Positions 14,167 through 18,263 of a stretch of 64,000 bases of DNA are shown here, piece after piece. The stretch is from NCBI RefSeq assembly GCF_025949665.1, contig NZ_JAPDFT010000001.1, positions 2,542,001-2,606,000 of the forward strand. The letters run 5' to 3'. Every line of letters starts with the position of its first letter. Position 1 is the first letter of the stretch. The notes beneath the pieces were generated by a model. It did not search any database and was not told where the DNA came from. It saw only the letters and a list, made by a program, of their open reading frames with translations. This DNA comes from Chryseobacterium viscerum (GTDB lineage: Bacteria > Bacteroidota > Bacteroidia > Flavobacteriales > Weeksellaceae). Both the position numbers and the translations under genes were made by a program.

Positions 14167-15159
14167 TTATAGTGATAAATTGATTTTCTCTGCTCCCTCT
14201 GTGATTTCTCCGATTTCGTAAGCGTCATCTAAAAGGTGTAATACTTTTTCAGTATGTTCAGCATCTACAACGATTACCATACCTACCCCCATATTGAATG
14301 TTCCGTACATTTCCTCACGTGTTACTCCTCCTCTCTTTTCAAGCTCAAGCATTACGCTAGGGATTCTCACTTTAGAACCGTCAATAGAAGCACAAAGTCC
14401 TTCAGGAATAATTCTTGGAACGTTTTCATAAAGTCCGCCTCCGGTAATGTGAGCAATTCCACTTACTTTTACTTCTTCCAATACTTTGTGAATATCTTTG
14501 TAGTATAGTCTCGTAGGAACTAAAAGGGTTTCATATAAAGGTTTTCCTTCAAATTCTTCTTCAAAGTTCGGGAATACTTTTCTTACTAAAGAGAATCCGT
14601 TTGAGTGGAATCCTGAGCTTGGTAATGCAATAATTTTGTTACCTGCTTTGATTGTAGAACCATCAATAATCTGATCTTTTTCTACGATTCCTACGCAGAA
14701 TCCTGCAACATCATAATCTCCAGGCTGGTACATTCCCGGCATTTCAGCAGTTTCTCCCCCAATCAGCGCACAGTTGTTATCTTTACAAGCGGCTACCATT
14801 CCTAAAACAATTTCTGCTGCGATTTCTGAATCAAGCTTTCCACAAGCCAGATAATCCAGGAAGAATAAAGGTTTTGCTCCGTGACAAAGAATATCATTGG
14901 CACACATTGCGAAGCAATCTACCCCGATAGAATCATATTTTCTGGTATCTAAAGCTACTTTCAGCTTTGTTCCTACTCCATCTGTTCCTGATACAAGAAC
15001 CGGATTTTTGTATCCACCGATCTCATAGAAAGCACCAAAACTTCCCAAGTGGTTCAGTACATTGGAATTGTGGGTTTCACCGACCGCTTTTTTGATCTTG
15101 TCAACCGTTTTGTATCCTTCTTCTTTGTCTACTCCTGCTGATTTGTAAGTGTTGCTCAT
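14167..15159 (-). CDS. purM: Phosphoribosylformylglycinamidine cyclo-ligase
   Basis: 330 residues. It closes the imidazole ring (FGAM to AIR) with ATP. Diagnostic are SGTDGVGTKL near residue 60, GGETAEMPGMY, the substrate-site sequence SSGFHSNGFSLVRK, and AHITGGGLYENVPR. It is the first gene of the minus-strand purine cluster. A terminator and a structured transcript lie 130-250 bp upstream, and no good promoter is visible between them and the ATG, so regulated read-through is possible. Confidence 0.97.
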   Translation of the reverse strand: MSNTYKSAGVDKEEGYKTVDKIKKAVGETHNSNVLNHLGSFGAFYEIGGYKNPVLVSGTDGVGTKLKVALDTRKYDSIGVDCFAMCANDILCHGAKPLFFLDYLACGKLDSEIAAEIVLGMVAACKDNNCALIGGETAEMPGMYQPGDYDVAGFCVGIVEKDQIIDGSTIKAGNKIIALPSSGFHSNGFSLVRKVFPNFEEEFEGKPLYETLLVPTRLYYKDIHKVLEEVKVSGIAHITGGGLYENVPRIIPEGLCASIDGSKVRIPSVMLELEKRGGVTREEMYGTFNMGVGMVIVVDAEHTEKVLHLLDDAYEIGEITEGAEKINLSL

Positions 15160-15240: not shown

Positions 15241-15286
15241 CTTATCTTTTAATATTTCAATTACTTTTATACTCGATTTTAGAAAA

Positions 15287-15319
15287 CAAAAAAGCCGACA
15301 ATCTTTTCAGATTATCGGC
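15287..15319 (-). terminator. Terminator upstream of purM
   Basis: Minus-strand stem GCCGATAATCT/AGATTGTCGGC (one mismatch), loop GAAA, then six T. It ends the short transcript; no protein gene on this strand feeds into it. Confidence 0.8.
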
Positions 15320-15410
15320 CGTTATTTTATCTCAGAATTTCAGAGCCCACAATTTTCCCTTTATGAGAAAAACATTGTTTATAGGAGGTCTGAATTTTCA
15401 TCTCTTTTCT
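15288..15410 (-). ncRNA. Structured ~120-nt transcript, candidate 6S-like RNA
   Basis: A full promoter (15416-15446) and a terminator (15287-15319) bracket about 120 nt with no reading frame. Seen in the minus-strand sequence: TTCAGA can pair with TCTGAA to close a long hairpin, a mostly unpaired centre follows (CCTCCTATAAA opposite GTGGG), then an apical stem CAA..TTTT.CTC / GGGAAAATTG with loop ATAAA. One long hairpin with a central bubble is the layout of 6S RNA, which mimics an open promoter; a flavobacterial form (6S-Flavo) is known in Rfam. I could not match it to that model. It may instead be an attenuated leader of purM, which begins 128 bp past the terminator. Confidence 0.5.
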
Positions 15411-15415
15411 TTTTG

Positions 15416-15446
15416 CAAAAATAGTAATTTTAAATGAATATTCAAA
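15416..15446 (-). promoter_or_regulatory. Consensus promoter of the structured RNA
   Basis: Minus-strand TTTG (15443-15446; TTG 15443-15445), spacer 19 bp, TATTTTTG (15416-15423). Matches the Bacteroidota consensus fully. Its -33 box lies inside the left 71-bp direct repeat of the neighbouring insertion. Confidence 0.75.
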
Positions 15447-15510
15447 TTCTATTTTTCAAGGATTGTTTCAATGGCTGCAATCTTCTTTATTTTTTCTTTT
15501 AACTCACTGT
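15440..15510. repeat. 71-bp direct repeat, left copy
   Basis: Identical base for base to 17703-17773. It corresponds to the last 20 codons, the stop and 9 bp of 3' flank of the FMN reductase gene. Confidence 0.95.
15449..15510 (-). pseudogene. 3'-end remnant of FMN reductase gene
   Basis: Encodes, on the minus strand, the C-terminal SELKEKIKKIAAIETILEK and stop of the reductase whose intact copy is at 17712-18263. Homology stops at 15510. An ATG 10 bp further upstream in frame would give a 23-codon peptide, but no promoter or function is apparent. Confidence 0.85.
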
Positions 15511-15706
15511 TTTTATACATGTTATATTTCTATTAAAACAACTTCATTAAAGCTATCATTGAAAAAAATTATATCTCCTTAATAATTAAATTGAGCCACA
15601 AAATTATCGTTAAATTAAGACTTATTAAGTATTTGATAAATAATAAACTGTAGTATATTCTTCCTGATATTCCTTTTATACAAAGAAAAAATAAACATTC
15701 AGATAG

Positions 15707-15735
15707 TTGATTATATAAGCTAAATCTTATTTTTG
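15707..15735 (+). promoter_or_regulatory. Promoter of tail-fibre-like gene
   Basis: TTG (15707-15709), 18-bp spacer, TATTTTTG (15728-15735), all within the inserted segment. The transcript would start about 17 nt before the ATG at 15757. Confidence 0.7.
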
Positions 15736-15756
15736 GCTTACTTAAATTATTAAAAT

Positions 15757-17628
15757 ATGTATATGTTAAAAACAATTGACAGTATTTCAGAATTAAGAAA
15801 TACGAATGGGCAATCAGAAGGGGAATCTATTTTATTGTTAGGCTATTATATTCCAGGCGATAAAGGACATTTAATATATAAATGGACATATAGTACAGCA
15901 ATTGATAATGGCGGAAGTATTATTAATGGTACAGGTGGAAGTTGGATTGCTATTTTTGAAAATCAACAATTTAATTCAAAAGACTTCTCTCTGTTTCCAG
16001 TCTCAACAGCTCCAAACTATAATAATTTTAATACTCAACAAGCTTTATTTGACAAGGTAAGAAATTATGCTATAGATCATAATTTAGATCTGGTTTTTGA
16101 CAGTGGTAACTATTCGGTTAACATTTTCAGAACCGGATACGCTATTAACAAAATGAAAATCAACATCATAGGAAAAGGGACTGTTAATTTTTATCTTAAA
16201 AAGAATAGTACTCCCACAATGGTTCAGTTCTGGGATGACGCTTACATTGAAAATATCAACTTTTATTCTTTAGAAACAGAACTGGATTCTCAACGTGCCA
16301 CTACAGAGTCCAGAAATCGTATTTATCTAAGAAGATGCGGTTTTTTTAATTTTAAAAATCAAACAAATGGTAATTCATGGGGATTGTATGCAAAAAACAC
16401 AAATGATCTGACAGTTGACAATTGTTTTTTCGGTAATAACGGTCAATCTGATTTTTCAATTGTAGATAACTGTAATAATATCAAAATTGTTAATCCTGTA
16501 AATACCATTGATAATGGGATGTATTTGAATATTGAGCCCAATTCGATAGAAATAAATCAAAACATTCAATTACAGGGTGGTGTCTATCGAAGAATTAATT
16601 TATTAGTAAATACATTATCCGCAAATCCTGTACAAAATATGACTATTATCGGCTGCCAAATAGATTGGTTGATGTACGATGGGGCAGACTGTGAAATAAT
16701 TGGATCACAAATAAAGAAAATAACAAATCAAGAGGTAGTCAATATACCTATGGGAAATTTAGATCTGAATCTGAGATTTGGACCTAATTTAATTCCTGAT
16801 CCCTATTTGATAGATTTTGATTATTCCGAGTCGGTACGGTCATGGGTTTTCGGTACGGCAACTTCACTTGTGATAGATAGAGTTAATAAAGATTACACAA
16901 GAATAGGTAATAGGAATATTGCTAATCACTCTACTACTATAAAATCTAAACTGATACCTGTAAATGCCACCTCTAAATATCTGTTTATGCTTAACGGCAA
17001 TGCCAATTATTTTGGTACAATAAGCAATATCGCCAGATGTTTCCGAATAGAGCTATATGATTCCAACCAACAGTTAATTACGATAACCAAACCGGTAGCA
17101 GGTATAGACACCCAGTTTCAAAATATAGTGGGTAGTGCATTTCGTTTTCCTTTAACCACAGAAGGCTCAACGGGTTTCACAAATCAAATTGCGATTTTAG
17201 AATTTGAGCAATATGCACCCCAGACAAAATACTTAAAGATAGAATTAGGTAAATATAATGTAAATCAAAATGAATTTGACTTTAAGTTTATATCATTGAA
17301 CGAAATATTAAGTTTTGAAAAAGGCGAGAGTATTTCAAGTTATATATCAAGAAATCTTCCTAATGGCAGATATAAAATAACAACAACACCTCCATCAAAT
17401 CTCATAGAAAACAGAACAGCAGGAGCTATGACAGGAGATATCTTATATTCAGAAACGGGACAAAGCTGGATTGTCACAGATGGTAGTATTCGTCCAATTA
17501 AAGTAGATAAAATCAATAAAAAAAAGATGAATCAAATGAATTCATCAGCCACAGATATAACAACTTTGGTTACAGATTTTAATAATCTTTTGCAAAAATT
17601 AAAAGAAGTTGGATTAATGGATAGTTAA
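15757..17628 (+). CDS. Phage tail-spike/head-fibre-like beta-helix protein
   Basis: 623 residues, no signal peptide. Residues 1-67 (ISELRN..LLGYYIPGDKGHLIYKW..GGSWIAIF) resemble the N-terminal attachment module of phage tail spikes. Residues about 100-340 have the short-strand, Asn-rich pattern of a right-handed beta-helix (LTVDNCFFGNNGQSDFSIVD), as in pectate-lyase-fold depolymerases. About 350-520 looks like a beta-sandwich carbohydrate-binding region. The last 30 residues (SSATDITTLVTDFNNLLQKL) resemble the C-terminal coil of phage head-fibre proteins. No other phage gene is near. ATG at 15757 or 15763 (MLKT) are both possible. It probably binds or cleaves a polysaccharide; activity not shown. 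Confidence 0.75.
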   Translation: MYMLKTIDSISELRNTNGQSEGESILLLGYYIPGDKGHLIYKWTYSTAIDNGGSIINGTGGSWIAIFENQQFNSKDFSLFPVSTAPNYNNFNTQQALFDKVRNYAIDHNLDLVFDSGNYSVNIFRTGYAINKMKINIIGKGTVNFYLKKNSTPTMVQFWDDAYIENINFYSLETELDSQRATTESRNRIYLRRCGFFNFKNQTNGNSWGLYAKNTNDLTVDNCFFGNNGQSDFSIVDNCNNIKIVNPVNTIDNGMYLNIEPNSIEINQNIQLQGGVYRRINLLVNTLSANPVQNMTIIGCQIDWLMYDGADCEIIGSQIKKITNQEVVNIPMGNLDLNLRFGPNLIPDPYLIDFDYSESVRSWVFGTATSLVIDRVNKDYTRIGNRNIANHSTTIKSKLIPVNATSKYLFMLNGNANYFGTISNIARCFRIELYDSNQQLITITKPVAGIDTQFQNIVGSAFRFPLTTEGSTGFTNQIAILEFEQYAPQTKYLKIELGKYNVNQNEFDFKFISLNEILSFEKGESISSYISRNLPNGRYKITTTPPSNLIENRTAGAMTGDILYSETGQSWIVTDGSIRPIKVDKINKKKMNQMNSSATDITTLVTDFNNLLQKLKEVGLMDS

Positions 17629-17663
17629 CCTATTCAAACTCATTATAAATAGCTCTTAATATA

Positions 17664-17690
17664 AAAAACCACTCATTTTGAGTGGTTTTT
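17664..17690 (+). terminator. Terminator of tail-fibre-like gene
   Basis: Stem CCACTCA/TGAGTGG, loop TTT, flanked by five A and five T, 36 bp after the stop and inside the inserted segment. Confidence 0.9.
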
Positions 17691-17702
17691 ATGTAAATAC
17701 AA

Positions 17703-17773
17703 ATTCAAATTCTATTTTTCAAGGATTGTTTCAATGGCTGCAATCTTCTTTATTTTTTCTTTTAACTCACTGT
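17703..17773. repeat. 71-bp direct repeat, right copy
   Basis: Identical to 15440-15510; it includes the stop codon and final 20 codons of the intact FMN reductase gene. Confidence 0.95.
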
Positions 17774-18263
17774 CTTTCTCTTCATTAGATATCTTTTGAC
17801 CTGCTTTATCAAAATTATCATTAAAGAAAGGAAGAGAGAAAGTTTCCACCACATTTCCTCCATGGAAAGGAAAACGCTTCGATGCTGCTTCCAAAACTCC
17901 AGCTCCACCTCTGCCTCCTGGAGATGTAGACATCAATAGCATTGGCACTTCATTCCAAACTGTTCTGTCTTTGATTCTGGACACCCAGTCGAATACATTT
18001 TTGAATGCTGTAGAATATGTTCCGTTATGCTCTCCTAAAGAAACCAATAATAAATTTGCGCCATCAATTTTTGCTGCAAAATCATGAGCTTCCTGAGGAA
18101 CACCACCAGCCAATTCTCTTTCATGCTTATAGATTGGCATTTCAAAAGGATTCAGATCTATTACTTCTACTTCTGCATTTTCAAATAATGTTGATGCATA
18201 GGCTACCAACTGTTTGTTCATTGAAGCTTCGGAGTTACTTCCTGCTATTGCTAAAATTTTCAT
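17712..18263 (-). CDS. NADPH-dependent FMN reductase
   Basis: 183 residues, flavodoxin-like fold. The FMN phosphate loop is GSNSEASMNKQL at residues 8-19, and the flavin-binding segment is SLGEHNGTYSTAFKNVFDW (about 75-93), typical of the NADPH-dependent FMN reductase/azoreductase family. The enzyme reduces FMN or quinone-like substrates in the cytosol. Its last 20 codons belong to the right 71-bp repeat, so the insertion next door left the gene intact. It precedes no minus-strand gene closely, and pirin lies 37 bp upstream on the same strand, so the two are probably cotranscribed. Confidence 0.9.
   Translation of the reverse strand: MKILAIAGSNSEASMNKQLVAYASTLFENAEVEVIDLNPFEMPIYKHERELAGGVPQEAHDFAAKIDGANLLLVSLGEHNGTYSTAFKNVFDWVSRIKDRTVWNEVPMLLMSTSPGGRGGAGVLEAASKRFPFHGGNVVETFSLPFFNDNFDKAGQKISNEEKDSELKEKIKKIAAIETILEK

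Follow-up and report, generated by a model that had tools for sequence, protein, structure and literature searches.

An old phage-fibre-like gene, kept under selection and flanked by long direct repeats, lies beside an FMN reductase gene of Chryseobacterium viscerum. We analyzed a 64,000-nucleotide stretch of the genome of this species (hereafter, the window) and compared one locus in it with the corresponding loci of related species. The arrangement most likely goes back to a single insertion that was made without a recombinase, duplicated the DNA at its target, was then inherited under selection and was lost from some lineages by recombination between the repeats. Selection has maintained the gene in four species, and close relatives without it show no scar; we therefore regard the locus as an old inserted gene and not as a mobile cassette.

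Results

The locus and its repeats

A direct repeat of 71 bp, perfect in both copies (15440-15510 and 17703-17773), was verified by inspection of the sequence and by a repeat search; such a length of identity is far beyond chance. Imperfect similarity extends past these 71 bp to a total of about 137 bp, at 82% identity. In the whole genome of the window, the two 71-bp copies are the only strong matches to the repeat. Three other species show the same structure in assemblies made independently, of which one is a single contig. The proximal copy, termed A (17703-17773, minus strand), comprises the last 20 codons, the stop codon and 9 bp of flank of an NADPH-dependent FMN reductase gene (17712-18263, minus strand; 183 aa, PF03358), which is the target gene. 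The distal copy, termed B (15440-15510, minus strand), lies on the side of purM and is a non-coding duplicate of the 3' end of the reductase gene, continuous with the native downstream flank. It is adjoined by a decayed remainder (15511-15570, minus strand), a segment that is better kept in the three other carriers. The other neighbour, purM (14167-15159, minus strand), was used to locate empty sites.

Between the repeats lies about 2.2 kb of DNA with a single gene of 623 aa (15757-17628, plus strand). In the region upstream of this gene (15571-15756, plus strand), all four carriers have conserved the final 60 bp or so, including a TATTTTTG element, and a hairpin terminator (17655-17697, plus strand; z = -6.4) that is likewise kept in all four follows the gene. 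The first-pass annotation had described the extent and identity of the repeat, the single enclosed gene without a recombinase and the whole reductase, all of which we confirmed, the reductase being intact in all four carriers. It had also given the gene its own promoter and terminator; the terminator holds, while the promoter is a putative one, proposed from the conservation of TATTTTTG and its neighbours among the carriers.

The cargo protein

Residues 7-588 of the encoded protein match residues 131-724 of the fibre of Chryseobacterium phage MA9V-3 (XQU63094.1, 1459 aa) with 54% identity, and residues 107-413 match phrog_38235. Residues 588-621 match the C-terminus of phi29-type head fibres (PF11133 and phrog_12102, with E-values of 2e-4 and 3e-8), the match to PF11133 being under the curated cut-off. 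The cargo thus contains homology to an MA9V-3-type receptor-binding module but differs from the phage fibre in lacking the N-terminal 130 or so residues and a second module, and in ending in a head-fibre-type C-terminus; residues 1-130 of the phage protein, presumed to serve in virion attachment, have no counterpart in the cargo in the alignment to XQU63094.1. Likeness to the phi29-type head fibre is confined to the last 35 or so residues, the remaining protein being unrelated. An AlphaFold model (mean pLDDT of 38) was too poor for comparison with a fold library, and its strands at residues 112-320 only hint at a beta-helix trimer. A scan of a viral contigs collection with the single protein and with a four-sequence profile revealed no relative, and the PADLOC models gave no defence match. 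Judged by its sequence matches, the cargo is a phage-derived receptor-binding module gene, and its product is probably a protein that binds or depolymerises surface polysaccharides.

Empty and occupied sites in the genus

The reductase and purM genes are neighbours throughout the genus. We compared 133 same-genus species with both positions, drawn from two sets of 29 and 105 species with one overlap. The site is empty in 128 of them, with one repeat copy and a reductase-purM gap of 211-314 bp, and close relatives that lack the fibre gene show no scar. Such single-copy sites had been named in the first-pass annotation as support for a cassette; what they support here is an insertion. The same insert is found in three other species, namely G130 (C. 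rhizoplanae DSM 29371), G118 (C. panacisoli Gsoil 183) and G180, where the repeats measure 123-127 bp with 88-94% identity and the fibre proteins are 93% identical to that of the window. All four carriers hold the same 2.25-kb unit with no other content, and its boundaries and non-coding parts align throughout. Among the relatives examined, no integrase-bearing or otherwise large element occupies the site, the largest gap being 2,539 bp.

One further species, G107, has an unrelated insert of about 330 bp at the same junction, with an 82-aa ORF and an 18-bp repeat, AAAAATAGAATTTGAATA. Its end lies no more than 1 bp away from that of the fibre insert, with which it has the right boundary in common. 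A search of other genomes of the genus gave no match to this ORF. The first-pass annotation had proposed a comparison for different cargo between the same repeats; one relative has different cargo at the junction, an orphan protein and not a fibre, between repeats of 18 bp. An 810-bp gap in G142 was considered as a second case and rejected, as it sits beyond the RNA-like unit described below and not at the junction. The gap in that genome holds a YcxB-like ORF of 183 aa (L045:1242-1790) between the RNA-like unit and purM, a separate insertion in the same intergenic region.

A conserved unit next to the repeat

A nearly invariant block (15284-15446, minus strand), present in all of the approximately 38 distinct sequences compared, contains a promoter-like motif (TTTG-N19-TATTTTTG), a structured RNA-like unit of about 130 nt with a 24-codon ORF, and a terminator. 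The TTTG lies within the repeat, whose right edge falls just past it. The RNA-like unit has strong structure (z = -4.8), and Rfam gave only a weak match to it (RF04312, 30 bits against a cut-off of 59). In the 24-codon ORF upstream of purM, MKIQTSYKQCFSHKGKIVGSEILR, most base changes are non-synonymous, a pattern that suggests that it is the RNA that is constrained. The TTTG-N19-TATTTTTG pattern by itself is no commoner in the window than expected by chance, and the case for a putative promoter of this unit is made by its conservation. In five related loci (L005, L006, L007, L020 and L045), a Flavo-1 RNA (RF01705), scoring above the curated cut-off, was observed just downstream of purM.

The repeat would accordingly span two overlapping functions, the reductase end and the upstream half of the putative promoter of the RNA-like unit. 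A duplicating insertion would be tolerated because the copies keep both functions, whereas a non-duplicating insertion would damage one of them. This constraint alone could explain why the surviving inserts have a common end, without site-specific recombination.

History of the repeats

Copy B of the three other carriers corresponds to about 127 bp of the end of the reductase gene. In the window, the upstream part of copy B is decayed, and identity to copy A is limited to the last 71 bp. The 71-bp identity is thus real but is not the exact unit that the first-pass annotation took it for: about 130 bp were duplicated, and the 71 bp are the end at which the copies have been homogenised. Within the repeat stretch, the window differs from its empty sister, G170, at three places, and all three differences are common to A and B. 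In G130, an AAC and a GAAAAC are common to the two copies and have altered the reductase C-terminus; in G180, A and B are less alike. As variants that A and B have in common are absent from the nearest empty sister, the copies appear to recombine from time to time.

Age and selection

In a tree built from nine flanking genes (10.4 kb), the four carriers and five empty species form one supported clade of nine species, in which G170 is sister to the window and G020 to G130. Between the window and the other carriers, the dS of the fibre gene is 0.36-0.42, as compared to 0.35-0.39 for core genes, and the insertion therefore predates the split of the clade. The dN/dS of the fibre gene (0.06-0.10) reflects purifying selection, so that the protein has been kept by selection. 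Between G130 and G180 or G118, the fibre dS (0.21-0.24) is below that of the core (0.34-0.39), which suggests one later transfer. Working out the gain and loss history by hand, we found that pure vertical descent needs five losses after a single gain; a scenario with a single gain, two losses and a transfer into G130 fits better.

Discussion

Origin of the insert

We propose that the fibre module gene arrived in a single event that preceded the divergence of the nine-species clade, and that it came to lie between the FMN reductase gene and the RNA-like unit upstream of purM. About 130 bp would have been duplicated in this event, taking in the 3' end of the reductase gene together with the upstream half of the putative promoter, such that copy A keeps the reductase whole and copy B keeps the putative promoter whole. 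The insertion route was most likely rare recombination or repair with no dedicated recombinase; candidates are a single crossover with DNA that contained part of the reductase gene and homology-assisted illegitimate recombination. Since then, the gene would have been inherited under purifying selection, exchange between the repeat copies would have produced the identical 71 bp, and recombination between the copies would have cleanly removed the insert in several lineages. The insert may also have passed once between lineages. Empty sites, carriers, divergence, selection and the variants common to A and B are observed directly; the insertion mechanism, the losses through the repeats and the function of the fibre are what we infer from them. 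Against this account speak the five losses that vertical descent demands, the chance-level frequency of the promoter pattern taken alone in the window, and the G107 insert, whose end, no more than 1 bp away from that of the fibre insert, is compatible with a site-specific process.

The main rival, which we judge unlikely, is a non-autonomous site-specific element of the integrase type, carrying an attachment site that matched the reductase 3' end, with the repeats as attL and attR and a tyrosine recombinase supplied from elsewhere. The locus does resemble an integrative island in its attL/attR-like direct repeats, in its position at the 3' end of a target gene that is regenerated, and in its empty sites (128 of 133), and integrase-made repeats of 53 bp are known in the related genus Riemerella (PMC6764341). 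The main support for this rival is the unrelated insert of G107, the one further insert, which has the same right boundary but an 18-bp repeat, AAAAATAGAATTTGAATA. However, the single ORF of note between the repeats in the four species is accompanied by no tyrosine or serine recombinase gene, the insert of G107 also holds no integrase, and no integrase-bearing element is found at the site in the 133 relatives. The cargo is constant and as old as core genes, the repeats of about 130 bp and 18 bp have no common left edge, and the cargo of G107 was restricted to that genome in our search of the genus. The first-pass annotation had raised the possibility of a non-autonomous integrating cassette that swaps surface or fibre genes. 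Four species, all of one clade, have the same cargo at the same position with core-like divergence, and the one alternative cargo is a non-fibre protein; a currently mobile, site-specific, fibre-swapping cassette is thus not supported.

We consider it improbable that the insert is the remnant of a larger prophage or satellite from which an integrase and other genes were deleted. The cargo is indeed a phage fibre module, but the unit of 2.25 kb is the same, with nothing added, in all four species, the nearest phage, MA9V-3, is reported to be a strictly lytic myovirus with haloed plaques and without an integrase (PMC13120357), and the other orphan fibre genes of the genus stand alone at unrelated sites. 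Slightly more doubtful still is the view that each carrier acquired the gene independently, by recent insertion or by horizontal spread through homologous recombination at the repeats. An equal-cost parsimony requires just three gains, the fibre dS of G130 to G180 and G118 is below that of the core, and the repeats of each genome tend toward common private variants. Nevertheless, the fibre dS of the window to all three carriers equals the core dS, the boundaries and non-coding parts align throughout, and carriers occur only within one clade. An insertion sequence or transposon was rejected, as there is no transposase ORF, the ends of the insert form no pair of inverted repeats and the duplication is of about 130 bp. 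With regard to an integron gene cassette, the insert of the window contains no integrase.

Comparison to known systems

We compared the locus to the small segments that vary between bacterial genomes; direct repeats, mostly under 30 bp, flank 10-18% of them (PMC2884548). Like these, it is a segment present or absent between housekeeping genes, with no mobile-element genes and with basal direct repeats that permit deletion. In contrast to them, its repeats are of 71-130 bp and duplicate a gene end and half of a promoter, and it has been kept between species under selection. Such segments being already known, the locus is a long-repeat variant that duplicates a gene end and holds unusual cargo. 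Integrase-made islands, such as the 10K island of Riemerella anatipestifer with its 53-bp repeats at a tRNA-Arg gene (PMC6764341), are similar in their long direct repeats, in the functional gene 3' end as target and in the empty sites of relatives. Here, however, there is no integrase, a single gene, a protein gene as target and no sign of activity.

Solitary fibre genes in the genus

Of 173 genomes of the genus, 14 encode the phi29-type head-fibre C-terminus, each of them only once. Among the loci inspected, solitary phage-fibre-like genes, many with this C-terminus, were observed at several unrelated chromosomal sites (L062-L071 and L125-L128); repeats like those of the window were sought around these other orphan fibre genes and none were found, and our search of the literature on orphan tail fibres found none. 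Near one such gene, in G113, a ComM-like gene is represented only by a 203-aa C-terminal piece (L066:12998-13609), while in a relative, G140, it is whole (511 aa; L128:12729-14264). The genome of the window also contains three adjacent phage-sheath-like genes that resemble an extracellular contractile injection system (eCIS; G000:C1:1122459-1126383) and that are found throughout the clade; their PF04984 matches are weak and, in this genome, under the curated cut-off. An eCIS as partner of the fibre was rejected: the sheath-like genes are present in the four carriers but also in the five empty species of the clade, and as most other genomes with orphan fibres lack them, there is no independent association.

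As a tentative suggestion, for which we see a modest chance, Chryseobacterium chromosomes may keep solitary, selected receptor-binding-module genes that share a head-fibre C-terminus and lie at different sites, a single gene in each genome, as a class of domesticated fibres (e.g., for defence or for arming a phage-like particle), with the junction of the reductase and the RNA promoter serving as an exact insertion point for other cargo too. The locus draws notice to solitary phage-fibre genes under selection in chromosomes. It also indicates how tightly packed housekeeping genes can take in one foreign gene between them unharmed, when the duplication covers both the end of one gene and the promoter of the next, and the same duplication later permits loss of the gene without a scar.
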